DNA from: Rhodobacteraceae bacterium HLUCCA12
GTDB lineage: Bacteria; Pseudomonadota; Alphaproteobacteria; Rhodobacterales; Rhodobacteraceae
Assembly (NCBI GenBank): GCA_001314715.1
Contig: LJSV01000004.1
Span: 186,001 to 250,000, forward strand
Direction: 5' to 3'
DNA: 64,000 bases
This document shows, one piece after another, positions 52,202-64,000 of the stretch. Each line of letters opens with the position of its first letter. The first letter of the stretch is position 1. The notes under the pieces are model-generated. The model did no database searches. It was not told where the DNA came from and worked only from the letters and a program-made list of their open reading frames with translations. The translations under genes were made by a program, and so were the position numbers.

Positions 52202-53431
52202 ATGTTTGCCGTCGATTCACTTGACAGCCGCTATTCGTGGTTCCGGCTTGCGATCGCCCTCGTGGTCGCAACCATCGGCAATGTCGGCATCTGGTCGATC
52301 GTGGTGATCCTGCCCGCCGTTCAGGCCGATTTCGGGATCGGGCGGGGGGGCGCGGCGTTTCCCTATACGCTGACCATGCTGGGCTTTGCGCTGGGCAATG
52401 TGGTGTTCGGGCGGATCGTGGACCGCTTTGGCATTCACCTGACACTGGCAGGCGCGGCGCTGACATCGGGCACGGGCTATCTGCTGGCCGCAGCCAGCCC
52501 GACCCTGTCGGTGCTGGCAATGGCGCAATTCCTGATCGGTCTTGGCACCGCAGCCGGGTTCGGGCCGCTGATCGCCGATACCTCGCTGTGGTTCCGGCGG
52601 TTTCGGGGGCTGGCTGTCGCCATCGTCGCCAGCGGCAACTACCTGTCGGGCGCGATCTGGCCGATCATCCTGGCCACGCCGATGGCCGAACAGGGGTGGC
52701 GCCCGGTCATGGTGATCCTGGGGGTGACAATCGCGGGGCTGATCGTGCCGCTGGCCTTTCTGATGCGGCGCAGGCTGGGCGATTCCGATCTCAGCACCGA
52801 GGCGCAAAGATCACGCTTCAGCCCGCAGGCCACACCATTTTCGCCGCGCCTGCTGATGTGGCTTCTGGCGCTGGCCGGGCTGTCGTGCTGCATGGCGATG
52901 GCCATGCCGCAGGTCCATATCGTCGCGCTTTGCGTCGATCTGGGTTATGGTCCGGCCGTCGGGGCCGAGATGTTATCGCTGATGCTGCTGGGCGGGGTGG
53001 TTTCGCGCATCGTTTCGGGCTTTATTGCCGACCGGCTGGGTGGCGTGCTGACGCTGCTGATCGGGTCGATTTTGCAGATGGTCGCGCTGTTTCTCTATCT
53101 GCCGTTCGATGGCATGGCCTCGCTCTATGCAGTCAGCCTTGTGTTCGGGCTGGCACAGGGCGGCATCGTGCCCGCCTATGCGATCATCGTGCGAGAATAC
53201 CTGCCCGCGCGCGAGGCAGGGGCACGTGTCGGCCTTGTGATCATGGCGACGATCCTGGGCATGGCCCTGGGCGGGTGGCTTTCGGGCGTTATCTATGATC
53301 TGACCGGGTCGTATCGTCTGGCCTTTGTGAACGGCATCGCCTGGAACGCGCTCAACATCGCGATCATGCTGACGATCCTGTTCAGCAGCCGCTTTGGCAA
53401 GGCGCGTGCCACCGGGGTTGCCGGCGCGTGA
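52202..53431 (+). CDS. MFS transporter
   Basis: A 409-residue major facilitator permease with twelve hydrophobic helices in two halves. The loop after helix 2 contains GRIVDRFGIHL, the family A-motif analogue, and its counterpart in the second half is SGFIADRLGGVLT. The layout is close to monocarboxylate/oxalate-formate type exporters (the OFA-like group). The substrate is not assignable. It is the last chromosomal gene before the tRNA-Cys insertion site. Confidence 0.85.
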   Translation: MFAVDSLDSRYSWFRLAIALVVATIGNVGIWSIVVILPAVQADFGIGRGGAAFPYTLTMLGFALGNVVFGRIVDRFGIHLTLAGAALTSGTGYLLAAASPTLSVLAMAQFLIGLGTAAGFGPLIADTSLWFRRFRGLAVAIVASGNYLSGAIWPIILATPMAEQGWRPVMVILGVTIAGLIVPLAFLMRRRLGDSDLSTEAQRSRFSPQATPFSPRLLMWLLALAGLSCCMAMAMPQVHIVALCVDLGYGPAVGAEMLSLMLLGGVVSRIVSGFIADRLGGVLTLLIGSILQMVALFLYLPFDGMASLYAVSLVFGLAQGGIVPAYAIIVREYLPAREAGARVGLVIMATILGMALGGWLSGVIYDLTGSYRLAFVNGIAWNALNIAIMLTILFSSRFGKARATGVAGA

Positions 53432-53438
53432 TCGTGTC

Positions 53439-53467
53439 TTGACGATCGCTGCGCAAGACCCTAGACG
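53439..53467 (+). promoter_or_regulatory. Native tRNA-Cys promoter (now upstream of attL)
   Basis: TTGACG at 53439-53444 and TAGACG at 53462-53467 are separated by 17 bases, and the tRNA-Cys 5' half starts at 53478, ten bases after the -10. This is the expected arrangement of the original tRNA-Cys promoter. Since integration it can only transcribe the truncated tRNA and the left end of the mobile element. Confidence 0.65.
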
Positions 53468-53474
53468 AAGGCCC

Positions 53475-53514
53475 CAAGGCGGGTTGGCGGAGAGGTTACG
53501 CAGCGGATTGCAAA
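53475..53514 (+). repeat. attL: 40-bp core, 5' half of tRNA-Cys
   Basis: These 40 bases are identical to 63825-63864. They contain the tRNA-Cys sequence from its first base (53478) through the anticodon loop and then diverge at 53515, where the tRNA's 3' half should begin. This is a truncated tRNA fused to the element. Confidence 0.93.
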
Positions 53515-53766
53515 GCCCGCAATAAACCGCGCGAAATCAACGCCAAAGCCGAAAATCCGTATCAGGACAGACCGGGAACGCCGGGTGAACACGATACTGG
53601 CCACAACGCCCCTTTCCAGACCGTAAAAACGAAAAATCCCGGCGCGCTGGGGGGCGCGACCGGGATCACTGGAAAAGATCAGGAGATCAATTCCAATCGA
53701 TACACCATACGGCCCAGAAGCGCAATAAGAGAGCACGCGAAAGACCGGCACAGGCGCGCTGCGCGG

Positions 53767-54039
53767 ATGCTGGCTTACTCGTTGTTTCTGGATGATGCGC
53801 TACACTGGCACGCGCTGAGTGTCGTCTTTCTGGCGCGCCTGACCAATCGTGAAGTCCTGTCGATAGCATTCGCCGCGCTTCGTGCACTCGAACCCGAGGC
53901 GCGGGAAATGGTCTTTGGTGCGGCTCACTGGGGCACCTTGCCTGCCGCCGATCGAAACCCCTGCGACACGCCCGAGTTTCGCCAAGCCTCTGCCGAGTAT
54001 CGGCACCGGTTCAGGATGCAGGAGCTTGGGCGCGCATGA
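53767..54039 (+). CDS. Left-end gene, 3' part of a gene split by integration
   Basis: As it stands this is a 90-residue protein (starting MLAYSLFLDDALHW) of unknown function, mostly helical with arginine and alanine. The frame is open without a stop from the att core (53515) to here. In the excised circle it is continuous with the ATG at 63736 just after the integrase, giving 217 codons. In the integrated state that start is 10 kb away, so only internal starts such as 53767 remain. The upstream chromosomal part of the frame has no ATG, GTG or TTG before a stop at 53440-53442. The 3' end overlaps the next gene by four bases. Confidence 0.6.
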   Translation: MLAYSLFLDDALHWHALSVVFLARLTNREVLSIAFAALRALEPEAREMVFGAAHWGTLPAADRNPCDTPEFRQASAEYRHRFRMQELGRA

Positions 54040-54266
54040 TGACCGAAGCCGAGCTTGATGAAATCCTTACGGTTCGTTGGCCCGCCATCGTGCGCCGTTC
54101 GATGATCGACGGTGACGAATGGACGCAATCTTTTGCCAAGAGCATTGCCCGCAACGGCAAGCGCCCGAACTGGCGACCGACGCCGAAACAAGAAGCCATC
54201 ATGCGGCGGCTGGTGTCCGATCTGGGCACCGCCCCCGAACGTGATGTTGAGCTGATCGAGAGGTGA
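54036..54266 (+). CDS. Small hypothetical phage protein
   Basis: A 76-residue protein starting in an ATGA overlap with the preceding gene and followed by a GC hairpin. Sequence such as ILTVRWPAIVRRSM and TPKQEAIMRRLVSDLG suggests a small helical protein. No family is recognised. Because it is coupled to the split gene, its expression may also depend on whether the element is excised. Confidence 0.55.
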   Translation: MMTEAELDEILTVRWPAIVRRSMIDGDEWTQSFAKSIARNGKRPNWRPTPKQEAIMRRLVSDLGTAPERDVELIER

Positions 54267-54276
54267 GAAAGACGAA

Positions 54277-54298
54277 GCCCGCCGTTGGCGCGGCGGGC
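54277..54298 (+). terminator. GC hairpin after the left-end genes
   Basis: GCCCGCC (54277-54283) pairs with GGCGGGC (54292-54298) across an eight-base loop directly after the stop of the preceding gene. No T-run follows, so it may be an imperfect terminator. Confidence 0.5.
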
Positions 54299-54650
54299 TA
54301 TGCGGCAGTCGGCGTTCACGGGTTAGCCGGGGCTGACGCATCACAGTGCTACCGGGTAACGGGCCAAAGCACAAGGGCAGCTATTCCGCGTCGTGCGGTC
54401 TCTCCATGCCCTAAGGCCCCACTGCCACCCTCTACGGCGGTGAACATGGGAGAGCGGACCGAGCCGAGGGAAAGGCAGGTCTGGCCTAATGCTGGGGCTC
54501 GTCCGAATTGGCAGAGCAACATGGCGGCGGTCAGGGCGGGAGGCGGGTTTTCAACCCCGCTGGAGTAACCCGCTTTCTGACCGTCAACCGGGGTCTGAAC
54601 CGATTGGCAGGGGCAAGATAGAGCAATGATTTAATGAAGGAGAGAGGCAC
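54299..54650 (+). other. Non-coding block upstream of the packaging genes
   Basis: About 350 bases without a convincing gene. It contains two mutually exclusive stems: GCGGG at 54543-54547 can pair with CCCGC at 54556-54560, or GCGGGTT (54543-54549) with AACCCGC at 54567-54573. There is also a D-arm-like GCTC...GAGC at 54497-54516 that does not extend to a tRNA. A good SD (AAGGAGAGAGG) at its right end serves the next gene. Lambda-type terminases act at cos sites near terS, so this block is a reasonable place to look for the packaging site or an attenuator. Confidence 0.45.
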
Positions 54651-54998
54651 ATGCGACTGAACAACAAGAGCGCCCGACTGGCAGTCAATGCGTGGCTGAC
54701 CTCGTGTGGCCGTGACCCGCTTGGCAGTGATCTTTCCTATGAGCAGTTTGCCACCGAGCTCAGGAAGGTGCGCGCCGCGACCGTTGTGCAAGTGGCATTT
54801 AAGAGCCGGGCCGATGCCGTTGCCTACATCCGCGAGACGGCGCGAACAGACGCGAGAGCATTTCTGGAAACTATGAAGCACAGAGGATCAATGAAGCCTG
54901 ACCTGTTCCCAGGCAATCGTGGGTCCTTTCCAGCCAGACCGTATGCGGGGGGCGAAGGCGCGGCGTGTCAGTCTTTGCAAGAGAAAACAAAGGGATAA
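54651..54998 (+). CDS. Hypothetical phage protein
   Basis: A 115-residue protein preceded by AAGGAGAGAGG. The N-terminal 75 residues look like a small mixed fold (SYEQFATELRKVRAATVVQVAFKSRADAVAYI) and the tail is low in structure. It sits immediately upstream of terS, three bases before its start. No family is recognised. Genes in this position are often regulators or HNH-type packaging helpers, but no HNH motif is present. Confidence 0.6.
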   Translation: MRLNNKSARLAVNAWLTSCGRDPLGSDLSYEQFATELRKVRAATVVQVAFKSRADAVAYIRETARTDARAFLETMKHRGSMKPDLFPGNRGSFPARPYAGGEGAACQSLQEKTKG

Positions 54999-55001
54999 AA
55001 T

Positions 55002-55508
55002 ATGCGGATCATGCAGGAACTGCCGGGGCTTGAAGGCGAGCGCGCCATTGCGCGCATCGGCGGCGCTGACCTGTGCGACCTGCTACGCCTTACGCCCGGC
55101 GCACTCACGGGCCTGGTAAAGCGCAACCTTGCGGTGAAGCTGGGCCATGATGCTTACGATCTGGCCGAGACCGTGGGCCGGTATGTCGAACACCTGCGCG
55201 GCACCGCTTCCGGGCGCGGGGGCGAAGAACAGGTTCTTACCCTTACAGGGGAACGCGCCCGCCTGGCCCGTGCGCAAGCCGACGCGCAAGAACTCAAGAA
55301 CGCGGCCCTGCGCAGCGAGTTGGTGCCGGCGTCCGAAGTTGAACGCGCCTGGTCGGACACCCTGCGCGGCCTTCGTTCGCAGCTTCTGGCAGTCCCGTCG
55401 CGAATTCGGTCCGATCTGGGGAACCTGACCCCGGCGGACGTTGCCAAGATCGACCGCATCATGCGCGACACTCTAGCGGACCTGGGCGAAGCCGATGCCA
55501 ACGATTGA
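55002..55508 (+). CDS. Terminase small subunit (Nu1-like)
   Basis: A 168-residue DNA-packaging protein. The N-terminal half is a winged-helix-like region that would recognise the packaging site. The central helix (LTGERARLARAQADAQELKNAALRSELV) and the SEVERAWSDTLRGLRSQLLAVPSRI segment are typical of Nu1/gpNu1-like small subunits. The 3' end overlaps the large subunit by 14 bases. A terminase of its own means the element can package its DNA without relying on a helper's terminase. Confidence 0.8.
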   Translation: MRIMQELPGLEGERAIARIGGADLCDLLRLTPGALTGLVKRNLAVKLGHDAYDLAETVGRYVEHLRGTASGRGGEEQVLTLTGERARLARAQADAQELKNAALRSELVPASEVERAWSDTLRGLRSQLLAVPSRIRSDLGNLTPADVAKIDRIMRDTLADLGEADAND

Positions 55509-57276
55509 ACAAATCCAGCGCAAGGCCCTGCGCGCCCTGATACCGCCACCGCGCCTGCGCCTGTCCGACTGGATCGAGGCCGAAGTGTGCCTTCCCGATG
55601 GTGTCACGGCACAACCCGGCCCCGTCCGCCTCTGGCCCTTCCAGCGCGAGATTGCAGACGCAATCGGAGATCCGCTTATCGAGCGTGTAACGCTGGTGAA
55701 GCCGGTTCGTGTGGGCTTTACAACCCTTCTCACCAGCGCTGTTGCCAGCTTCGTAGCGAACGAACCCGCGCCAATTCTCTGCCTCTTGCCCGCTGAAGCC
55801 GACTGCCGAGATTACATGGTTTCGGACGTTGAACCGATCTTCGGAGCTTCCTCAGCCGTCGCCGCCGCCCTTTCCGACGAAAAAGACGAAGCCGGGCGCA
55901 ACACCCTTCTGTCGCGGCGGTTCCCCGGCGGTTCGCTCAAGATCGTGGCCGCAAAAGCCCCGCGCAACCTGCGCCGACACAATGTCCGAATTCTGTTCAT
56001 CGACGAAGCGGACGGCATGGAAGCCACCGCCGAAGGTTCGCCCATTTTGCTGGCCGAGCGCCGTACCCTGTCCTTTCCAGATCGCAAGATCGTCATGGGC
56101 TCGACACCGGTCCACGAAGAAACAAGCCACGTTCTGCGCGCCTTCGCCCAGTCTGACGCCCGCATTTTCGAGGTGCCTTGCCCCGAGTGTGGCAGCTTCA
56201 CCGAAATTCAGTGGGCGCACATTATCTGGACCGAGGGCGAACCAGAAACCGCCCGCTTCAAGTGCCCGCACTGCGCCGCCGAAGTGCCCGAACGGAAAAA
56301 ACCTGGCATGATCGCGCTAGGCCACTGGCGCGCCACGCGGCCCGAAGTGCGGGGACATGCAGGTTTCCGGCTCAACGCCCTGGTTTCGCTTCACGCGAAC
56401 GCGGCATGGCCGAAGCTAGCGGCGGAATTCATCGCCGCGAAGGATGACCCCAGCACCCTGCAAACCTTCGTCAACACCATTCTTGGACAGGGCTGGCGCG
56501 CCGCAGGCGACGAGCTGGACGAAGGCGACCTTGCTAGCCGGGCCGAAGCCATCGGCCTGGACGAAGTGCCTGCCGAAGTGCTGGCGCTGACAACCGGAAT
56601 CGACGTGCAGCACGATCGCCTTGAGGCCACGCTTCTAGGCTGGACTGAAGACGGCGCGGCGCTGGTGCTGGGCCACGTTGTGATCTGGGGTAGCTTCGAA
56701 GACGAAGAAGCATGGCGCGACCTGGACGAACTCTTGCGCACCCGCTTTCGGCACCAGCTGGGCGGGCGTATCGGCATAGATGCCGCCGCCATCGACGCGG
56801 GCGACGGCGCGTCAATGCACCATGTCACCGCCTTTACGATGCCCCGGACCCGCGCCAAGGTAATTGCCATCAAGGGCGCGGACGGCAACCGGCCGGTGAT
56901 CGAGCGCGCCGGATCGAAGACGAAGACCGGCGCGCGCCTCTGGATCGTGGGTGTTGATACGGCCAAGGCCCAACTATTCGCTCGACTGCCCCGACCTGAT
57001 GCCGTCCGGTTCTCTGCCGATCTGCCGCCGGTCTGGTTTGAACAACTGGCCAGCGAACGCGCCGTGATCCGCTACAGGCGCGGCCAGCCTGTCCGCAGTT
57101 TTGAGCGCATTCCAGGCAAGCGCGCCGAGGCATTGGATTGTGTGATTTACGGCTATGCCGCCCGGCAGATCGTGACATTTGACCCCGAACGCCGCCGCCG
57201 AGAACTGGCCAGCGCAAGTCCGCCAAGTCTTCGAACCGGCCCAGTGCTGGAATCCGCCTGGATGCAAAAGAGGTGA
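55495..57276 (+). CDS. Terminase large subunit (GpA family)
   Basis: A 593-residue lambda gpA-type packaging motor and nuclease. The Walker A-like KPVRVGFTT is at residues 69-77 and Walker B ILFIDEAD ends at Asp170-Glu171. A zinc-ribbon pair, CPECG (229-233) and CPHC (257-260), separates ATPase and nuclease regions. The C-terminal nuclease has TTGIDVQHDRLEATLLGW, GIDAAAIDAGDG and the ALDCVIYGYAA closing motif. The length is close to the family norm and nothing is broken. GpA terminases cut at cos, so cohesive ends are expected. Confidence 0.93.
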   Translation: MPTIEQIQRKALRALIPPPRLRLSDWIEAEVCLPDGVTAQPGPVRLWPFQREIADAIGDPLIERVTLVKPVRVGFTTLLTSAVASFVANEPAPILCLLPAEADCRDYMVSDVEPIFGASSAVAAALSDEKDEAGRNTLLSRRFPGGSLKIVAAKAPRNLRRHNVRILFIDEADGMEATAEGSPILLAERRTLSFPDRKIVMGSTPVHEETSHVLRAFAQSDARIFEVPCPECGSFTEIQWAHIIWTEGEPETARFKCPHCAAEVPERKKPGMIALGHWRATRPEVRGHAGFRLNALVSLHANAAWPKLAAEFIAAKDDPSTLQTFVNTILGQGWRAAGDELDEGDLASRAEAIGLDEVPAEVLALTTGIDVQHDRLEATLLGWTEDGAALVLGHVVIWGSFEDEEAWRDLDELLRTRFRHQLGGRIGIDAAAIDAGDGASMHHVTAFTMPRTRAKVIAIKGADGNRPVIERAGSKTKTGARLWIVGVDTAKAQLFARLPRPDAVRFSADLPPVWFEQLASERAVIRYRRGQPVRSFERIPGKRAEALDCVIYGYAARQIVTFDPERRRRELASASPPSLRTGPVLESAWMQKR

Positions 57277-57511
57277 CAGAACAGGGCAGGGACTGCCCCC
57301 GGTTGTGATGATCGCTGGAAAAGTCCCCCGTAACTGGGCGAGTGGGCAAACCCCCAGAGTGCGCGGCTGTTGTCTCTCCGGCGCGGCGCACAAATAAACT
57401 TGATTTTCACGGCCATTCTGTAAGTCCATAGACCTTCTAAAAGTATTTACATAGCGAACGATATGTGTAATCAAATGATCATCAACTTGATACTTATCAG
57501 AGAGGCGAGAT
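57277..57511 (+). promoter_or_regulatory. AT-rich promoter region inside the packaging genes
   Basis: A 235-base gap follows the terminase. From about 57395 it turns unusually AT-rich for this window. It holds ACATA...TATGT arms (around 57451-57468) and a perfect palindrome, ATCAA-C-TTGAT at 57481-57491, just before the next start. These are candidate promoter and operator sites for the HTH gene that follows. The first part contains GTGGGCAAACCCCC (57342-57355), repeated at 61763-61776. Confidence 0.45.
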
Positions 57512-57997
57512 ATGAAGACCGTTGATGATATTCGGATTTCCACCGAGGCCCTGGCGGGCTTTCTGGACGTAAAGTCAGGAACCTTCCGAAACTGGCAGAA
57601 TCGCGACGGGCTGTTGCAGGGGGGCACCTTGTCAGGGCGTGGCCGCAGGGCGTCCTTCAGCTTCTCTGACTGCCTGAAGGCGTATGTAGCGAAACAGTTG
57701 ATCGAAATGAGCGTTTCGACATCTGTTGCCGCAACCATTGCCAACCACTCTCCAGCCCTCGATGCCTTCATGAATGGAGCACCGCTTGTTGTTGGTGTGC
57801 GGGATGGAAAACCCGCTCTGGCCTATGATCCTGATCGGGATATTGCCATTCACATTCCGCTTGAGGAATTCGGCTGGTCCCTTGCGGATTGGTTCTGCCA
57901 TCACATTGCCCTTTCGGCGGGGAAGCCGGGAGCCTTCCAAACGGCGAAGCGTGACTTTGAAGAACGCGTAAACCTGCACCGGATCAACAAGCAATGA
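57512..57997 (+). CDS. HTH-type hypothetical protein between terminase and portal
   Basis: A 161-residue protein. The first 70 residues read like a MerR/AlpA-style DNA-binding domain: RISTEALAGFLDVKSGTFRNWQNRDGLL, then GRGRRASFSFSDCLKAYVAKQLI. The C-terminal half has no recognised fold. It has its own AT-rich upstream region and a palindrome next to its start, and overlaps the portal start by four bases. It probably controls the head operon. It interrupts the usual terminase-portal order and differs in base composition from its neighbours. Confidence 0.6.
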   Translation: MKTVDDIRISTEALAGFLDVKSGTFRNWQNRDGLLQGGTLSGRGRRASFSFSDCLKAYVAKQLIEMSVSTSVAATIANHSPALDAFMNGAPLVVGVRDGKPALAYDPDRDIAIHIPLEEFGWSLADWFCHHIALSAGKPGAFQTAKRDFEERVNLHRINKQ

Positions 57998-59319
57998 TCC
58001 ACCTTAGGGACATAATCCGCCGTATCGTGGCGCCCGCAGCAATCCGGCAGATTGAAGCCGGGGGCGGTGGCTGGCGTTTTCAGGGCGTGCCTATGCTTCC
58101 CGCGCCCCAGCAAAGCGCCCTTGCAGCCCGAGGCCCGGCCAAGGCGCGCGCCGCTGCCCTGTCAATGAACAACCCGATTGCCGCCCGCGCCGTGGAGGCG
58201 TGGGCATCGGCTTTGGTTGGAAAGGGCTGGCAAGTGCAGTCGCAGCACAGCGACCGGCAAGTCGCGCGCATCTTGAACAATGATCTTGAAACACTCGTTT
58301 GGCCTCTCTTGCCTATGATTGCCAGAGGCATAGTCCGCGACGGCGAAGCCTTCGTGCGCATCCTGTCCGGGCCGAACGGGTTTCGCCTGGTCATCCTGCC
58401 TTCTGATCAGATCGACCCGGCCATGACCCGCGACCTGGGCAACGGGGCGCGCATCGTGGCCGGTGTTGAATTCGACGCATCGGAGCAAGTGACAGCCTAT
58501 CACGTCCTTCCTGATGCCCCCGGAACCGCCTTTGCCAACTATGGCGAAACGCTGCGCATCCCAGCTTCGGAAATCCTGCACATCTTTGACCCGATCTTTC
58601 CAGGCCAGGTTCGGGGCGTGACTTGGCTTGCCCCGGTCCTCTTGAAGCTGGCGGATTACGACGCCGCATCCGATGCCATGCTGATGAACCTTAAGACGCA
58701 AAGCCTGTTTGCAGGTTTCATCACTGACTTGGAAGGCGGCGCAGCGGGCTTCGATAGTCCTCGTGACGCCGGCACCGCTAATATCAGCCTTGAACCCGGC
58801 GCCATGCGCATTCTGCCCCAAGGCAGCGATGTGAAGTTCGCCCAGCCGTCTGGCGGGCTTTCGCAGCAAGTGGACTTTATCAAGTCGCAGCTGCACGAAA
58901 TCGCCGCCGGGCTGGGCCTGATGTATGAGCAGCTTTCGGGCGATCTGAGCCAAGCGAACTATTCCAGCGCCCGTTTCGGCCTGCTGGAATTCCGCCGCCG
59001 CGCCGAAATGCTGCAACGAACCCTGATCGAAGGTCAGCTTCTCCGCCCTCTCTGGCGCCGCTGGATCGACTGGAAGTCGCTTGCCGGTGAAATCACGCCC
59101 GAAGATGCCATGTCGCCAGATTATCGCGCCGTGCGCTTCGTTGCGCCCGGCTGGCAATGGGTTGACCCGCTTAAGGAAGTGAATGCCGAAGTGCGCGCCA
59201 TCGAGGCAGGCTTGAAATCCCGCGCCGAAGTAGTGGCCAGCCGGGGGCGCGATCTGGACGAAGTTGACGAAGAGATTGCGGCCGACAATCGAACGAACCG
59301 CCGGGAAGGTGCAGCATGA
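57994..59319 (+). CDS. Phage portal protein (lambda family)
   Basis: A 441-residue portal, the dodecameric ring through which DNA enters the capsid. Family features include AARGPAKARAAALSMNNPIAARAVEAWASALVGKGW at residues 44-79, DGEAFVRILSGPNGFRLVILPSDQID, and GEIL-like ASEILHIFDPIFPGQVRGVTWLAPVL. A late segment, LGLMYEQLSGDLSQANYSSAR, is diagnostic for lambda-type portals. The length is a little short for the family (usually about 500). The start overlaps the HTH gene and the end overlaps the protease-capsid gene. Confidence 0.93.
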   Translation: MIHLRDIIRRIVAPAAIRQIEAGGGGWRFQGVPMLPAPQQSALAARGPAKARAAALSMNNPIAARAVEAWASALVGKGWQVQSQHSDRQVARILNNDLETLVWPLLPMIARGIVRDGEAFVRILSGPNGFRLVILPSDQIDPAMTRDLGNGARIVAGVEFDASEQVTAYHVLPDAPGTAFANYGETLRIPASEILHIFDPIFPGQVRGVTWLAPVLLKLADYDAASDAMLMNLKTQSLFAGFITDLEGGAAGFDSPRDAGTANISLEPGAMRILPQGSDVKFAQPSGGLSQQVDFIKSQLHEIAAGLGLMYEQLSGDLSQANYSSARFGLLEFRRRAEMLQRTLIEGQLLRPLWRRWIDWKSLAGEITPEDAMSPDYRAVRFVAPGWQWVDPLKEVNAEVRAIEAGLKSRAEVVASRGRDLDEVDEEIAADNRTNRREGAA

Positions 59320-61133
59320 CAATTCATCTTCGCGCGGTGACGCCGCGCCCCTCAACTCTCGACCCAAACTTGCGGACTGTCGAAGCCATCGTTTCGACCG
59401 GGGCACCCGCCGTCCGTCCGGGATTTGTGGAACGCCTTGACCTGTCGGGGGCGGACTTGTCGCGCCTTGTCGGCGCCCCCGTTCTCGACGGCCACCGCGC
59501 CCAAAGCACCCGCGATCAGCTTGGCGTGATCGAAGCTGCCGAGCTGCGCCCCGAAGGGCTTTGGGTCCGCATCAAGTTTCGCTCGAACGACGCCGCGCAA
59601 GCCGTCCTTTCCGACATTGGCGACGGAACCCTGCGCGGCCTGTCCATCGGCTACAGCGTCCAGCAATGGCGCGAGGGGCAGGAAGGAAACCGGCGCGTGC
59701 GAACCGCCATCAAGTGGACACCCGTTGAGGTGTCCGTTGTCCCAATTCCCGCCGATCCCACGGCACACTTTCGCAATGGAGCATCAACCATGCCTGAGAA
59801 CGACATTCACACCGCCACGCCCCCGGCGGATCCAATCACGACGACCACGCCCCCGGCTGGCACGCTGACCCGCGCGGACATGAACCGCGAAATTCGCAGC
59901 ATCGCCCAGCTTGCCGGACTGCCCGACGAATGGACCAATGGTCAGATTGATGCCGAGGCAACCCCGGAACAAGCCCGCGCCGCCGCCTTCGAGGAAATGG
60001 GCGCCCGGCAGGACCAGACGCGCACCCGCACGGCGCGCGCCGACATCTTGACCGATCACAGCGACCCGGCAACAATTGCCACCAGGGCCGGTGAAGCTCT
60101 GTTTGCCCGTTCGCATCCGGAGCACCAATTGTCTGAACCGGCCCGCGCCTATGCTGGCCTGACCATTCCCGACACGGCCCGCGAATGCCTGCGCCGCGCG
60201 GGCATCTCGACCACCGGCATGGCAACCGAAACGCTGATCACCCGCGCACTGCACGCGACCAGCGACTTTCCCCTGATCTTGGGCGATGCCGTAAACCGCG
60301 AGCTGCGCCGAACTTATCAAGCCCCGGTGTCCGGTGCCCGCCTTCTTGCCCGCCAGACCACGGCCCGCGACTTCCGCGCGAAGCGCCGTGCGATCCTCGG
60401 AGAAGCCCCCGCGCTGGAAAAGACGAACGAAGCGGGTGAATTCAAACACGGCACCATTGACGAAGCCGCCGAAACCTATGCCGTCGCCACCTTCGGAAAG
60501 ATTATCTCAATCAGCCGCCAGGCAATGGTGAACGATGATCTGGGGGCATTCACGACCATTCCTGCTGCCATGGGCACCGCCGCCTTGAATTTCGAGGCTG
60601 CCCAGCTGGTAGCGAAGATCGAAGGCAACCCGGAAATGTCGGACGGCATCGCGGTCTTCAACGCAGCCGGGCATGGCAACGAGAAATCGGCCACCGCAAC
60701 CGGCTCCGGCGTGACCATGGTTGATGCCATTACCGCCGATCTGGGCACCGCCCGCACCGCCATGCGCCGCAAGACCGGCTTGAGCGGTGCGCCGATCGAC
60801 GTTGCCCCCCGCTTCGTGCTGGTGCCGCCCGAACTGGAAACCGACATGCAAAAAGCCCTGGCAGCCATCCAGGCGACTAGCTCCGAAGACTTCAACCCGT
60901 TTTCGACGCTTTCGCTGGCAGTCGAACCGCGCCTGACCTCCGAAACCCGCTGGTATGTCGTTGCAGATCCGCAAACCGTGGATGGTCTGGAATATGCCTA
61001 TCTTGAAGGCGCCCCCGGCCCCCAGATCGAAAGCCGCGCAGGCTTTGAAGTGGACGGAACCCAAATCAGGGTTCGCCTGGACTTCGGTTGCGGCTGGGTT
61101 GACCACCGCGGCTGGTATCGGGTTGGCGACTGA
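59316..61133 (+). CDS. Prohead protease/major capsid protein fusion
   Basis: A 605-residue fusion. The first 150 residues are an S78/U35-type prohead protease with the catalytic pair His60 (VLDGHRAQ) and Ser110 (RGLSIGYSV). A threonine/proline-rich linker follows (about 160-185), then a delta/scaffold-like region to about residue 290. The rest is an HK97-fold major capsid protein (ALEKTNEAGEFKHGTIDEAAETYAVATFGKIISISRQ; FVLVPPELETDMQKALAA). Self-cleavage would release the mature coat protein during assembly. Such fusions are known in alphaproteobacterial phages. Confidence 0.92.
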   Translation: MTIHLRAVTPRPSTLDPNLRTVEAIVSTGAPAVRPGFVERLDLSGADLSRLVGAPVLDGHRAQSTRDQLGVIEAAELRPEGLWVRIKFRSNDAAQAVLSDIGDGTLRGLSIGYSVQQWREGQEGNRRVRTAIKWTPVEVSVVPIPADPTAHFRNGASTMPENDIHTATPPADPITTTTPPAGTLTRADMNREIRSIAQLAGLPDEWTNGQIDAEATPEQARAAAFEEMGARQDQTRTRTARADILTDHSDPATIATRAGEALFARSHPEHQLSEPARAYAGLTIPDTARECLRRAGISTTGMATETLITRALHATSDFPLILGDAVNRELRRTYQAPVSGARLLARQTTARDFRAKRRAILGEAPALEKTNEAGEFKHGTIDEAAETYAVATFGKIISISRQAMVNDDLGAFTTIPAAMGTAALNFEAAQLVAKIEGNPEMSDGIAVFNAAGHGNEKSATATGSGVTMVDAITADLGTARTAMRRKTGLSGAPIDVAPRFVLVPPELETDMQKALAAIQATSSEDFNPFSTLSLAVEPRLTSETRWYVVADPQTVDGLEYAYLEGAPGPQIESRAGFEVDGTQIRVRLDFGCGWVDHRGWYRVGD

Positions 61134-61348
61134 TGACCATTGCGGCCAGCGAGCTTGTCACCATGCGTGATGCCCTGATCAGGGCACGCGCACGGGGCGT
61201 TCGGGAAACGACGGTTGACGGGATGCGCGTTTCTTACGCCACCGATGCCGAAATGGCCGCAGTGATTGCCGATCTTGAACGCCGCATCAATGCCGCATCG
61301 GCCCCTTCGCGGGGGACGGTGCATTTCTCGACCTCCAAGGGAGTCTGA
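61133..61348 (+). CDS. gpW-like head-tail joining protein
   Basis: A 71-residue protein resembling lambda gpW, which plugs the filled head and forms part of the tail attachment site. The signature is the helix MRDALIRARARGVRET followed by DGMRVSYATDAEMAAVIADLERRI. It overlaps the capsid gene by one base. It is the only head-tail connector found in the element. Confidence 0.8.
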   Translation: MTIAASELVTMRDALIRARARGVRETTVDGMRVSYATDAEMAAVIADLERRINAASAPSRGTVHFSTSKGV

Positions 61349-61349
61349 C

Positions 61350-61685
61350 ATGAAGAACTTTGTGCAAACCGGGAACACGCTGACCTTCACCGCCGCCGAT
61401 CCTGTCACCGCCGGGCAAGGGGTTGTTATGGGGGCGTTGTTCGGCATCGCTGCCAGCTCTGCCGCCACCGGCGAATCGTTCGAGGCCGCGTTGACCGGCG
61501 TCTTTACCCTGCCCAAGGCCGAAGACGACATTGCCACCGGTGCGGCCCTCTACTGGGATGAAGCCCAGGGACTGGCGACCACGACCACCGCCGAAGGGGC
61601 TAACCCGCTGATCGGCGCTGCGACCGAAGCAGCCGGAACAAGCGCCTCGACGGTTCGCGCGCGCCTCAACGGCACCACGATCTGA
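61350..61685 (+). CDS. DUF2190 family capsid decoration-like protein
   Basis: A 111-residue protein matching DUF2190: FVQTGNTLTFTAADPVTAGQGVVMG at the N-terminus, FTLPKAEDDIATGAALYWDEAQG, and a closing GTSASTVRARLNG. DUF2190 proteins are beta-rich and thought to decorate or cement phage capsids. The ATG at 61350 follows AAGGGAG. It ends the structural operon. Confidence 0.82.
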   Translation: MKNFVQTGNTLTFTAADPVTAGQGVVMGALFGIAASSAATGESFEAALTGVFTLPKAEDDIATGAALYWDEAQGLATTTTAEGANPLIGAATEAAGTSASTVRARLNGTTI

Positions 61686-61786
61686 GCAGGGAGAGTTTGA
61701 GCAATGGCAGGGGCGCGCAACACCGCTACGTTTCACGGGGAAGCGCCCCCGTCATTCGGCGCGTGGGCAAACCCCCGCCGCGCGCG

Positions 61787-62020
61787 TCACTTGCGGCGCA
61801 AGCGGACCCCCGGCCCGCCGCCGTTCTCTTCAATGAAATCCACCCCGGCAGCCTCAAGGGCGGCTCGGATTGCTGCGACCGCATCCACTGATGCGGGGGG
61901 CTGGATTGTGCCTTCCGCCCGCTTCAATGTCGAAACCGAAACCCCGGCCATGCTGGCGAGGTCTGTCTGGGAGAGCGACACAAGCGAACGCCCTGCCCGA
62001 ATTTGCGCTGATGCTGTCAT
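61787..62020 (-). CDS. XRE-type transcriptional regulator of the element
   Basis: A 77-residue minus-strand protein with a helix-turn-helix: IRAGRSLVSLSQTDLASMAGVSVSTLKRAEGT. The tail (AIRAALEAAGVDFIEENGGGPGVRLRRK) is common in small XRE proteins of phages and plasmids. The start at 62020 leaves 66 bases to the divergent gene. It is the only regulator on the minus strand in the element and is the natural candidate for controlling the excisionase-integrase unit. Confidence 0.8.
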   Translation of the reverse strand: MTASAQIRAGRSLVSLSQTDLASMAGVSVSTLKRAEGTIQPPASVDAVAAIRAALEAAGVDFIEENGGGPGVRLRRK

Positions 62021-62086
62021 GTTTTCTGTTGAACCATTTAGACCAATGGCTATATGGACCATACAACATTTTCAGGAGGCAAGGCA
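62021..62086. promoter_or_regulatory. Divergent promoter/operator of the element's control genes
   Basis: Rightward: TTGAAC (62029-62034) and TATATG (62051-62056), 16 bases apart. Leftward, TTGTAT and TCTAAA on the complement are about 18 bases apart. The two overlap. Repeats of the form ACCAATGG and GGACCAT in between give possible regulator sites. A strong SD (AGGAGG, 62074-62079) precedes the rightward gene. Confidence 0.5.
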
Positions 62087-62512
62087 ATGTCCAAAGAACG
62101 CGCCTGCGCGAACGGCCCCATTATGTCCCGCCGCGCCCTTATCGCTACCGCCCCTGCCGCTGGCCTCGCTGCGCTGGTCGCGGGCGCAGAGCGGGTGCAG
62201 GCATTGACCGGCGAAATCATCGAACCGCCTTACCTGCATGTGGTTGATCGGCCCGTGCCTGGATCGCGGCCCGGCATGAAGCCCGGCGACATGCTGCTTA
62301 TTCTGCCCGGCCTGAGCCAGTGGGATGATACGCATTTGATGCGGAGTGGTGATTTCGCGGCTGTGCAGGTAACGCGGCCCGATGGCCTCGTTCACATCTG
62401 CTACCACGGCACCCGTCAAAGACTTCTCGTTTCCCGCGAACAGGCGAAAGAAATCGTTGCAGGAAGCATCGCCGGAAAGATTCGCCTGGTTCGCGGCCGC
62501 TGGATCGCTTGA
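62087..62512 (+). CDS. Hypothetical protein, possible Tat-type signal
   Basis: A 141-residue protein. An RR-containing hydrophobic stretch (MSRRALIATAPAAGLAALVAGAERVQA, residues 13-39) looks like a Tat-type signal or membrane anchor. The remaining 100 residues form an unknown domain (KPGDMLLILPGLSQW, VTRPDGLVHICYHG). The start at 62087 follows AGGAGG. It heads the rightward control operon. A signal in a satellite gene is unusual; surface exclusion or interference with other phages would be possible roles, but there is no sequence proof. Confidence 0.55.
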   Translation: MSKERACANGPIMSRRALIATAPAAGLAALVAGAERVQALTGEIIEPPYLHVVDRPVPGSRPGMKPGDMLLILPGLSQWDDTHLMRSGDFAAVQVTRPDGLVHICYHGTRQRLLVSREQAKEIVAGSIAGKIRLVRGRWIA

Positions 62513-62534
62513 GGCTTGTTGAGGAAATGAAGCC

Positions 62535-62744
62535 ATGAACCGCCCCGCCCCAATACTCGCCAGCGAAACCAGCGCGGCCCGACTTCTGGACATGAAGCCG
62601 GCCGAGTTTCGCGCGCTGGTCGAAGCCGGGCATTTTCCGCGCGGGCGTGAAATCGCGCCGGGAATGGTGCGCTGGCCGGTCGATGAGCTGCGCCTGATCG
62701 CAAACGGGGAAGCCGCCGAAGGGCTGGGGGACGTGCAATGGTGA
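62535..62744 (+). CDS. AlpA/excisionase-like HTH protein
   Basis: A 69-residue protein with the MerR-like fold of AlpA and phage excisionases: SETSAARLLDMKPAEFRALVEAGHFPRG, then GMVRWPVDELRLIANG. It overlaps the integrase start by seven bases, so recombination directionality factor and integrase are made together. AlpA proteins activate integrase/excision in many satellites. Confidence 0.78.
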   Translation: MNRPAPILASETSAARLLDMKPAEFRALVEAGHFPRGREIAPGMVRWPVDELRLIANGEAAEGLGDVQW

Positions 62745-63739
62745 AACGCAAGAAATACCTATGGCAGCACCCGGACGGGCGCTGGTATGTCCGCATCAAG
62801 GGCAAGTATCACCGCATCAACGCGGACGAAGGCACACCAGGCTTTGACCGCGAGTATTGGGATATTCTGACCGGTCGCAGAGCCGAGGCCAAGCGAAGCT
62901 TTTCCGCCCTGATCAAACTGATCCGCGAATCGGACTGGTGGCGCGATAAGTCTCCGAGATACCGCGCCGACCTTGAGCCGGTGTTTCAGTATCTTGAGGA
63001 AAAGGTGGGCAAACGCGACGTGTCGCGCATGACTCAGGCCGACATTTACGAGGCGATGGACCGCAACGCGCATCGGATCCGCTTCGCCAACTACATTCCG
63101 ACCGCCCTTTCCCGACTGTTCAAGCTGGCGGTGCGCAAACGCTGGCGCAATGACAACCCCGCAATCGGGATTGAGCCACTGCCGATGCCGAAAGCTAAGA
63201 AGCGCCCTCATATTCCCTGGACCGACGCCGCCGTCGCAAAGATGCGCAGCGAAGGCACCGGGCTGGCGCTTCTGGTTTTCGAGCTGGGTGTTGGAACCGT
63301 CCAGCGCCCTGGCGATCTTCCAGGCTTCACATGGGGAGACTATGACGGCGACACGCTATTCCTTCGCCAGGGTAAGACCGACAAGCCCCTTCACCTGCCC
63401 TGCACCGCCGCCCTGAAAGCTGCCCTTGCGAAGGCCCGCAACGAGCTGGGCGCGGCCCCGCATCCGTCACGGCACATTCTGACGCTGCAATCGGGCCAGC
63501 GGATGACATATCGCAGAATGGCCGAAATCTTCCTGACTGAGCGCAAGAGGCTTGGCCTAGAGGCTTTCGACCTTCACGCCCTGCGCTACCGGGGCGTGAT
63601 GGAACTAGCATGGCATGGATGCGACGACGACGAAATCCAAGCCTATTCAGGCCACAACACCAAAGCCATGGTGATCAAGTATGCGGGCGAGGCCCGCCAG
63701 ATCATGCGTGCCAGACAAGCAAGGGAGAAGCGCAAATGA
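62738..63739 (+). CDS. Tyrosine-type site-specific integrase
   Basis: A 333-residue recombinase with a complete catalytic set: Arg190 (TVQRPGDL), Lys213 region, His280 and Arg283 (DLHALRYRG), His306 (YSGHNTKA) and nucleophile Tyr315 (VIKYAGEA). An N-terminal DNA-binding region (residues 1-60) and a core-binding domain (65-150) precede it. It lies 86 bases from the right att core and would recombine the tRNA-Cys anticodon region. Its stop overlaps the ATG of the next frame. Confidence 0.95.
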   Translation: MVKRKKYLWQHPDGRWYVRIKGKYHRINADEGTPGFDREYWDILTGRRAEAKRSFSALIKLIRESDWWRDKSPRYRADLEPVFQYLEEKVGKRDVSRMTQADIYEAMDRNAHRIRFANYIPTALSRLFKLAVRKRWRNDNPAIGIEPLPMPKAKKRPHIPWTDAAVAKMRSEGTGLALLVFELGVGTVQRPGDLPGFTWGDYDGDTLFLRQGKTDKPLHLPCTAALKAALAKARNELGAAPHPSRHILTLQSGQRMTYRRMAEIFLTERKRLGLEAFDLHALRYRGVMELAWHGCDDDEIQAYSGHNTKAMVIKYAGEARQIMRARQAREKRK

Positions 63740-63873
63740 ACAGAACGAGACCGGAACAAGAACCTGATACGGAAAGTGATACGGCCTTGACGAGTGCACC
63801 GGGAAAACCTAATGAATGCGGCGGCAAGGCGGGTTGGCGGAGAGGTTACGCAGCGGATTGCAAATCCGTGTAG
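63736..63873 (+). CDS. 5' part of the att-spanning gene (45-codon stub when integrated)
   Basis: An ATG in a 4-bp overlap with the integrase stop, preceded by GGGAGAAG. When integrated, the frame reads into tRNA-Cys and stops at the TAG at 63871-63873, giving a 45-residue stub whose end is encoded by the tRNA. In the excised circle, codon 43 (the AAA that ends the core) is followed directly by 53515 and the frame continues to 54039, giving 217 residues. The N-terminal part is polar and probably disordered. Confidence 0.5.
   Translation: MNRTRPEQEPDTESDTALTSAPGKPNECGGKAGWRRGYAADCKSV
63787..63815 (+). promoter_or_regulatory. Element-borne replacement promoter for tRNA-Cys
   Basis: TTGACG (63787-63792), a 17-base spacer and TAATGA (63810-63815) form a strong sigma-70 type promoter, 12 bases before the tRNA-Cys start at 63828. 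It has the same -35 and spacing as the native promoter left behind at 53439, and lies inside the att-spanning reading frame. Confidence 0.65.
63825..63864 (+). repeat. attR: 40-bp core within intact tRNA-Cys
   Basis: Exact copy of 53475-53514. Here the core continues into the chromosomal 3' half of tRNA-Cys. Identity ends at the base after AAA in the anticodon loop, so strand exchange occurs in or before the anticodon arm. Confidence 0.93.
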
Positions 63874-63901
63874 ACCGGTTCGATTCCGGTACCCGCCTCC
63901 A
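63828..63901 (+). tRNA. tRNA-Cys (anticodon GCA)
   Basis: A complete 74-base tRNA including the encoded CCA. The acceptor stem is GGCGGGU with ACCCGCC, discriminator U, the anticodon loop is UUGCAAA on a GCGGA/UCCGU stem, and the T loop is GGUUCGAUUCC. Its 5' half (to 63864) and its promoter come from the mobile element; its 3' half is chromosomal. Confidence 0.97.
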
Positions 63902-63932
63902 GCATGCCGACATCGCAAGGCATTCACCGCGG

Positions 63933-63960
63933 CCGGCGCGGTGCCGCCAGGCACCGGCCG
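63933..63960 (+). terminator. GC hairpin after tRNA-Cys
   Basis: GGTGCC (63940-63945) pairs with GGCACC (63950-63955) across a GCCA loop, with outer CCGG pairing. It lies about 35 bases after the tRNA end and is a plausible terminator. The rest of the window to 64000 shows no gene. Confidence 0.45.
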
Positions 63961-64000
63961 GGGGTTGAATGGGCGCGAAGGCGCGTCAGTCGGGGCCGAT

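Follow-up and report, generated by a model that had tools for sequence, protein, structure and literature searches.

The window analysed here, a 64,000-nucleotide stretch of the genome of Rhodobacteraceae bacterium HLUCCA12 (contig LJSV01000004.1, positions 186,001 to 250,000), contains a 10.35-kb element integrated in a tRNA-Cys gene. We consider it probable, with a chance of roughly 0.85, that this element is a capsid-forming phage satellite that borrows the tail of a siphophage. A preliminary description of the same DNA had proposed a capsid-forming, tail-less satellite-like element. That proposal gained support from tail-less relatives bounded by attachment (att) sites, from purifying selection, from a separate clade of capsids and from tailed prophages with a related gpW in the same genome. 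All coordinates given below are those of the window.

The ends of the element were marked by two identical 40-bp att copies lying 10,350 bp apart, as first described, and an intact tRNA-Cys gene stood at the right end:

53475..53514, no strand: attL, 40 bp, identical to attR
63825..63864, no strand: attR, in the 5' half of tRNA-Cys
63828..63901, + strand: tRNA-Cys gene, the integration target, intact (tRNA call)

For comparison with the 40-bp att, the longest exact repeat at a spacing of 8-13 kb in positions 1-53000 of the window was only 18 bp. A congener (genome G394, locus L127) has an empty tRNA-Cys site, where the same major facilitator superfamily (MFS) gene directly adjoins the tRNA gene. 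A query made of the joined flanks of the element aligned with L127 without a break over the junction (78%, query 12-1350, junction at 1273), indicating that the element boundaries are right. The G+C content of the element was 62.0% versus 66.3% in the rest of the window. The IMG/VR database already contains the element as an automatic call (L008), with 14 of 14 proteins at 100% identity. The element splits the window tRNA-Cys from its native upstream region, and therefore another promoter must be supplied by the element or read the tRNA gene. The att site corresponded to the 5' half of tRNA-Cys in the window and in L061, and to the 3' half in L060, L079 and L082.

Between the att sites lie 14 genes:

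53767..54039, + strand: orf90, left-arm gene, function unassigned, with homologues in relatives and in a second satellite type
54036..54266, + strand: orf76, left-arm gene, its protein 72% identical to one of satellite L449 (PF05065 type)
54651..54998, + strand: orf115, no Pfam or PHROG match
55002..55508, + strand: terS (phrog_57, E=2e-27)
55495..57276, + strand: terL of the lambda gpA type, GpA ATPase and nuclease (PF05876, 1.4e-80; PF20454, 2.1e-79)
57512..57997, + strand: orf161, MerR-like winged-helix protein before the portal gene, probable regulator (AF2, Foldseek)
57994..59319, + strand: portal (PF05136, 2.5e-76)
59316..61133, + strand: prohead protease-major capsid fusion (phrog_4523, 4e-171; PF25209, PF04586 (S78))
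61133..61348, + strand: gpW / Ad1 head-tail adaptor (phrog_2545, 1.4e-13)
61344..61685, + strand: cement / head decoration protein, DUF2190 (PF09956, 4e-23)
61787..62062, - strand: XRE-type repressor candidate (HTH_31, 9.5e-06, 26.3 bits versus a Pfam cut-off of 27)
62054..62512, + strand: orf152, divergent from xre, no Pfam or PHROG match
62535..62744, + strand: AlpA-like excisionase/regulator (phrog_66, E=0.0024, weak; homologues in relatives)
62738..63739, + strand: tyrosine integrase (PF00589, 1.2e-13)

Pfam and PHROG matches verified the intact terS, terL, portal, protease-capsid, gpW, DUF2190 and integrase genes of the preliminary description. Its statement that no gene is broken also held, with no broken frame seen among the element genes. 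The two regulators named there stood in part: the XRE-type helix-turn-helix (HTH) domain fell just under the Pfam cut-off, and the AlpA-like protein was weak by profile and gained from 51-71% identical homologues in four relatives (L014, L052, L061, L079). No tail, lysis or replication family was found among the 14 genes by Pfam and PHROGs, in agreement with the absences first reported. The AlphaFold2 (AF2) model of orf161 had a mean pLDDT (predicted local distance difference test) of 75.9, and its best Foldseek match was the MerR-type CvkR at an E value of 0.025; no Foldseek match lay below 0.001 and no Pfam match was found. On this model, orf161 may be a head-operon regulator. The orphan genes orf90, orf76, orf115 and orf152 had no known function by Pfam and PHROGs, and an additional open reading frame (ORF) at 54263-54565 had a marginal PHROG match only (E=0.008). 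A search of solved structures by sequence with the capsid gave no useful match. Beyond the preliminary description, the analysis showed that the element has a family of relatives, that its genome harbours another satellite and that it contains two copies of an RNA.

Relatives were sought in 394 genomes of the same bacterial family and in 385 genomes of the wider class. Capsid matches at E<=1e-60 occurred in 81 of the 394 family genomes, tailed prophages included, and about 47 of the 394 carried an element-type capsid (manual reading, among the matches listed). We mapped 40 stretches from 35 element-type genomes and 17 other stretches. Among the 58 stretches examined, 19 distinct elements, that of the window included, were att-bounded, with sizes of 9.9-12.65 kb. 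They were integrated at tRNA-Cys, -Trp, -Arg, -Gln, -Met, -Phe, -Glu, -Ser or -Tyr genes; L055 was bounded by a 36-bp repeat without a called tRNA. Eight of the 19 were bounded by repeats of just 14-19 bp, lying at the edge of the tRNA gene and scoring 14-19 versus 8-11 in one shuffle each. The remaining stretches were truncated at contig ends, duplicated the record of an element already counted, or had no repeat. All 19 bounded elements had terL, portal and capsid genes, and 16 shared a common integrase cluster. The preliminary description had suggested seeking the gene order and boundaries of the element in other genomes; 18 att-bounded relatives within the bacterial family have the same plan. 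Named hosts of capsid relatives were Rhodovulum strictum, Pseudodonghicola, Paracoccus, Rhodobacter and Shinella, and a capsid relative also lay on a replicon of Paracoccus versutus. Close copies of the element were those of Rhodovulum strictum DSM 11289 (L002) and Rhodobacter sp. SW2 (L007). Capsid matches occurred in 14 of the 385 genomes from the wider class, own genome and tailed types included, and full-length matches outside the family included G450, G733, G474 and G689 (tail content unmapped). As judged from these sequences, the window element is not an isolated wreck and belongs to a widespread group, seemingly undescribed, in one bacterial family.

These relatives also bear on the idea that the element is a host-domesticated particle maker resembling a gene transfer agent (GTA), or a defence island that would interfere with the assembly of a helper. 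Bacteria of this group often carry GTAs (see also PMC8224337), and restriction-modification genes occur in one member of the group at tRNA-Met. However, the att sites, the integrase, the empty site in the congener and the patchy presence (about 47 of 394 genomes) speak for a mobile element and against a fixed host locus, so this explanation is scarcely credible. The att sites, integrase and empty site led us to reject a gene transfer agent in particular.

The absence of tails extended to the relatives. Our tail queries were eleven neck, tail and lysis proteins of the siphophage RcKemmy, and such queries detect tails of that kind only. They matched in 2 of the 40 family stretches (a gpFII-like gene in L056 and the degraded L068) and in none of the 17 other stretches. 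In control prophages with related capsids (L106-L118), neck or tail matches lay directly after the cement gene in 13 of 13 cases, and ten had a tail tube match. A manually chosen set of 69 non-core ORFs, drawn from the window and 18 relatives, matched 18 Pfam families at E<=0.001, including primase and DNA-binding families and one gpFII; apart from this gpFII, no tail or lysis family was present. With PHROGs, no tail or lysis family appeared among the best 25 of the 73 families matched by the non-core ORFs. The IMG/VR scans were restricted to the best 80 loci of each. For two element groups, 0 of 80 and 1 of 80 loci had matches to the RcKemmy queries. In the window-group scan, tail-query matches occurred in 32 of 79 loci, nearly all of them tailed phages of low capsid identity; at a capsid identity of >=40%, a match was seen in 1 of 32 contigs (L183, a neck gene).

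The gpFII-like gene of L056 (15747-16076) and the RcKemmy gp12-like gene of L183 (near 2386) are each a single neck gene beside terS, as if neck parts of a helper had been captured. In L068/L105, tail pieces (chaperone, tube, tape measure) lay upstream of a truncated portal gene, and L412 had a tail-chaperone piece. These pieces are either a remnant or possibly tail-interference cargo.

One alternative is a prophage decaying after deletion of its tail, lysis and replication genes. The head genes are indeed homologous to those of RcKemmy-type tailed phages, and the truncated portal beside tail-gene fragments in L068/L105, a copy of the tRNA-Met group, would fit such decay. Yet 19 att-bounded elements, inserted at a wide range of tRNA genes, have the same tail-less plan. 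The preliminary description had reasoned that close relatives with tail and lysis genes would mark the element as a deletion derivative. None was found, and pieces of tail genes were seen in one degraded copy of a distant group (L068).

The capsid tree also spoke against decay. In a 71-row tree (quick IQ-TREE), 37 element capsids and 15 of the tRNA-Met group separated from 19 tailed-phage capsids with a support of 99 in the Shimodaira-Hasegawa-like approximate likelihood ratio test (SH-aLRT). The 70-row portal tree (FastTree) placed all tail-less portals apart from the tailed ones. When a second set of tailed prophages was included, this split failed and the tail-less rows required two changes, so we do not claim a single origin of all tail-less portals. 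After removal of L005, L006, L139, L140 and L141 (long branches) and nine tRNA-Met-group rows, the reduced portal tree grouped the elements alone together at 98, and the order of the elements, the tRNA-Met group and the second tailed set was unsettled. The terL tree (FastTree) was not clean, the elements needing three changes. Between the window and L002, the ratio of nonsynonymous to synonymous substitution rates (dN/dS) was 0.11 for terS, 0.13 for terL, 0.09 for portal, 0.10 for capsid, 0.31 for gpW and 0.21 for cement. The head genes are thus under purifying selection. Given the relatives, the tree, the selection, and the absence of broken genes and of tailed close relatives, we rejected a deletion derivative or defective prophage as highly improbable.

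The genome of the host itself held two prophages with RcKemmy-type tail genes, on contigs C26 and C50. A profile of 49 gpW proteins from element stretches scored their gpW at 75.5 bits (C26) and 68.6 bits (C50), versus 22-32 bits in 13 other tailed prophages of the family and at most 31.5 bits in six cultured phages. A gpW profile matched in 99 of the 394 family genomes. Among 20 strong gpW loci outside elements, 18 had RcKemmy-type tail matches and the other two ended at contig edges; the gpW C-terminus was (S/T)KGL in 12 and AVKDL in 8. A tblastn search with the window gpW against 50,697 phage records returned nothing at 1e-3. Because tail and lysis genes are absent from the element and its gpW resembles that of tailed prophages of the same family, we infer that a helper would supply both functions. 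The helper is probably a siphophage with an RcKemmy-type tail, of uncertain species.

It might also be supposed that the element is a self-sufficient small virus, delivered without a tail or by an unrecognised delivery protein among its orphans, as orf90, orf76, orf115 and orf152 would allow. The orphan genes, however, are small and present in only part of the relatives, and no lysis gene was recognised. The element has also retained portal and gpW, which in known phages serve tail docking. A self-sufficient virus therefore seems barely plausible.

If the element is a helper-dependent satellite, its cycle may be pictured as follows. The XRE-type repressor would keep the element silent in tRNA-Cys, until infection or induction of a helper allowed the integrase and the AlpA-like protein to excise it. 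Its own TerS and TerL would then package the 10.35-kb genome into heads for which the element itself encodes the portal, protease-capsid and cement proteins. The gpW protein would close the head and present a docking surface to the neck and tail of the helper siphophage, and the helper would lyse the cell. As a guess, the RNA at the ends of the head gene blocks might couple head-gene expression to the helper cycle.

This RNA, about 125 nucleotides (nt) long, was recognised through a 61-bp imperfect repeat in a non-coding stretch, and its model, R1, found two copies in the element:

57277..57400, + strand: structured RNA copy 1 (R1, 117.9 bits), starting directly 3' of the terL stop codon
61698..61810, + strand: structured RNA copy 2 (R1, 59.9 bits), after cement, the last head gene

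Copy 2 and the 3' end of the oppositely oriented xre gene overlap. A 13-base core of the RNA occurred exactly twice genome-wide, both times within the element. Two further R1 matches in the window (22.1 and 16.7 bits) were taken as chance. An 11-sequence MAFFT alignment, two rows of it from the window, revealed four helices with 31 pairs, 18 of which had compensatory changes. In this alignment 92.5% of the cells paired, and the covariation score was 0.403 versus 0.149 in shuffled alignments (0 of 500 reaching it) and at most 0.092 in slid ones. With 36 sequences aligned to R1, 24 of the 31 pairs had compensatory changes, and the score was 0.466 versus 0.146 shuffled (0 of 500) and at most 0.071 slid; this alignment leans to the R1 model, while the MAFFT alignment does not. 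Single-sequence folding of five copies gave z-scores of -1.33 to 1.15, no better than shuffles, and the case for the RNA rests for that reason on covariation, which supported the structure.

R1 had 11 strong matches in 10 of 99 sources, namely the window (two), L002, L010, L011, L014, L054, L055, L056, L060 and L061, all of which belong to the alignment of the model itself. An independent test was given by the genome search, in which R1 was found in 33 of the 394 family genomes at E<=0.001, many of the sites lying outside the model. Among 347 genomes of the class it was found in the own genome only, and none of 43 tailed-phage stretches had it. This raises the question of why the head blocks of tail-less satellites end in a folded RNA unseen in the tailed-phage stretches examined. 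A search of positions 53000-64000 with Rfam 15 at E<=1 returned the tRNA and one match elsewhere, far below its gathering score, and no match to the RNA; at gathering scores, five loci gave tRNAs only.

Each of the two head gene blocks of the window is closed by an RNA copy; in L055 the RNA follows gpW, not terL. Because of this position at the ends of head gene blocks, the RNA may act in cis as a 3'-end element or be an RNA processed from the 3' end, and is less likely to be a packaging-motor RNA. A DNA site, such as a terminase or packaging site or a terminator, might be proposed instead, since the region adjoins terminase or head genes, has been detected as DNA only, and folds no better than shuffles in single copies. 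But the four helices, the compensation of 24 of 31 pairs and the conserved unpaired stretches argue for RNA, and in PF05065-type satellites the RNA follows the portal gene, not the terminase. We therefore regard a DNA site as unlikely.

The PF05065-type satellites came from the examination of 20 RNA sites outside the window type (L449-L468). A PF04860-type portal gene lay upstream of the RNA in 13 of the 20 (by sequence cluster; one a 215-aa remnant), and a PF05065 capsid gene in one. The RNA start lay between -30 and +3 nt relative to a stop codon in 15 of the 20 contexts; in the second type, this was the portal stop, and a single head block ended in one RNA copy. In six of the 20, stretches of 9.3-10.7 kb were bounded by repeats at tRNA-Glu, -Arg or -Cys, the repeats measuring 17-23 bp in L449, L452, L454 and L465 and 48-50 bp in L461 and L464. 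The RcKemmy tail and lysis queries matched in none of the 20 contexts. Among 89 ORFs from seven elements, TerL (PF03354) and PF04860 had seven members each, PF05065 and integrase six, S78 and HNH four and a gp6-like connector three, in addition to DNA-binding families. No tail family was present among the best 25 of the 29 families that these ORFs matched. By its predicted genes, the second type has the gene set of a capsid-forming phage-inducible chromosomal island (cf-PICI), including the genes by which cf-PICIs are recognised.

A third arrangement was seen in two further contexts (L453, L466), where the RNA stood kilobases upstream of a gene for a 530-540-aa protein distantly related to the window capsid; after that gene came a small gene and one for an integrase. 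In L453, the RNA was near a replication initiation protein. L451 started at a contig edge. In L450, L458 and L460, no recognised head gene stood before or beside the RNA copies (80-103 bits), and the L450 copy adjoined an integrase gene.

By blastp, the window element shared orf76 with 3 of the 20 contexts (72% identity in L449), the integrase with 8 (69% in L461) and the XRE protein with 6 (44-53%). It shared AlpA with two (70% in L461; the other of the window-capsid type). Since the second type has orf76, integrase, AlpA and XRE in common with the window element, two unrelated head modules seem to share one chassis. On balance, we favour the view that this chassis (orf76/orf90, XRE, AlpA, integrase and tRNA att site) has exchanged at least two head-packaging modules, and that the undescribed RNA often present at their 3' end controls head production or the encounter with a helper.

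Several of the larger relatives carry primase-helicases (VapE, Prim-Pol, D5_N, DUF5906), and some smaller ones carry HTH_36 replication initiators. In the tRNA-Met group, which measures about 17-20 kb (att-like repeats, four copies), the integrase gene occupies the left end, a VapE-Toprim primase is present, and cargo separates the terL and portal genes. In genome G065 this cargo (L066:4094-7534) comprised a C5-methyltransferase, an MTaX1/HNH protein and an Eco57I-type methylase. The same slot in L101 (11332-13695) held a 788-aa SEC-C protein with weak PADLOC matches. The genome of the window also contains a second satellite, of the tRNA-Met group, split by contig ends over contigs C23 (L096) and C29 (L124); its DNA is 92% identical to the G065 copy over 5.6 kb.

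A number of observations weigh against the proposals made above. The window copy has no replication gene recognisable by Pfam or PHROGs. No terminal direct repeats, the sign of a circle, were present in 250 IMG/VR loci, many of which are partial or tailed phages, and we therefore rejected circular contigs as proof of excision. Three IMG/VR contigs with related head genes and a length of exactly 11,696 bases (L200, L220, L230) were considered as one circle and rejected, as their DNA differs. The co-occurrence of elements with the tailed prophages that have a related gpW was modest (15 of 47 versus 7.4 expected, one-sided Fisher p=0.002, among the matches listed), and the p value ignores kinship and mobile-element load. 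The gpW of the elements ends in SKG plus one residue, and that of C26 and C50 in AVKDL. The search for a gpW-matching helper prophage, advised in the preliminary description, thus yielded related gpW proteins in the same genome with a different C-terminus, and we downgraded C26 and C50 as clear tail donors. The identity of the helper is uncertain because of this difference and because 12 of the 20 other gpW loci are closer. As for the RNA, the other nine carriers had one copy each, and R1 was absent from 10 of the 20 window-group sources (L003, L004, L007, L012, L013, L015, L052, L057, L058 and L059, some cut by ends), from all 15 tRNA-Met-group stretches and from all 14 of the 'about 40%' stretches. 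These absences imply that the RNA is dispensable for some such satellites.

Among known systems, cf-PICIs resemble the window element in encoding their own head, protease, portal, terminases and integrase, in lacking tail and lysis genes, and in their order of size. The cf-PICI label of the preliminary description nevertheless had to be withdrawn for the window element. Its capsid did not match PF05065, the cf-PICI capsid family, but PF25209, PF04586, PF10124 and PF15536 at E<=0.01, and Pfam and PHROGs found no HNH gene among the 14 element genes and the ORF at 54263-54565; simple membership was rejected on these two grounds. Of the integrase, AlpA and Stl-like repressor that characterise cf-PICIs, the integrase was clear in the window element, AlpA was weak by profile and the candidate repressor fell just short of the Pfam cut-off. 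Unlike cf-PICIs, the element has a PF05876 TerL, a PF05136 portal, a PF25209 protease-capsid fusion and gpW, and its head module is unrelated to theirs. RcKemmy-group Rhodobacter siphophages have a homologous head module, with a capsid about 35% identical to that of the window, but RcKemmy is a 41-kb phage with a tail, a holin, an endolysin and gpW before the portal gene.

P4-like satellites, PICIs and phage-inducible chromosomal minimalist islands (PICMIs) are integrated islands that depend on a helper; the present elements are likewise integrated and probably helper-dependent. The islands named use the capsid of the helper, whereas the elements described here encode their own head. Integrase, AlpA and primases, including DUF5906, are among the PICMI genes named in PMC10803314, and the relatives found here, like PICMIs, carry such primases. 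Satellites of the Streptomyces Mulch/Flayer systems encode encapsidation machinery, as here, though their hosts differ; PMC10690885 describes the Flayer satellite as having its own tail adaptation and as apparently non-integrating. As for the RNA, CBASS (cyclic oligonucleotide-based antiphage signalling system) cyclases are reported to sense structured RNA from staphylococcal phage terminase genes (PMC10686824). That RNA, like the present one, is a structured RNA of a terminase region, and its source is the terminase genes of staphylococcal phages.

In the portions of the literature at hand (including PMC11389934, PMC13345588, PMC13230959, PMC12846349 and PMC12324425), elements of this kind are undescribed in this bacterial group, although the founding cf-PICI and SatelliteFinder papers may list some. 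The word 'satellite' is absent from the main text of a Rhodobacteraceae prophage survey (PMC8224337). The structured RNA offers a sequence handle for locating such elements and a testable new part. The head-building satellites in the literature covered belong to other bacterial groups and to one capsid family. Here, a separate lambda-type lineage and a cf-PICI-like one occur within a single bacterial family, and their genes for regulation and integration are related; capsid-forming satellites therefore look modular and seem to have multiple origins.

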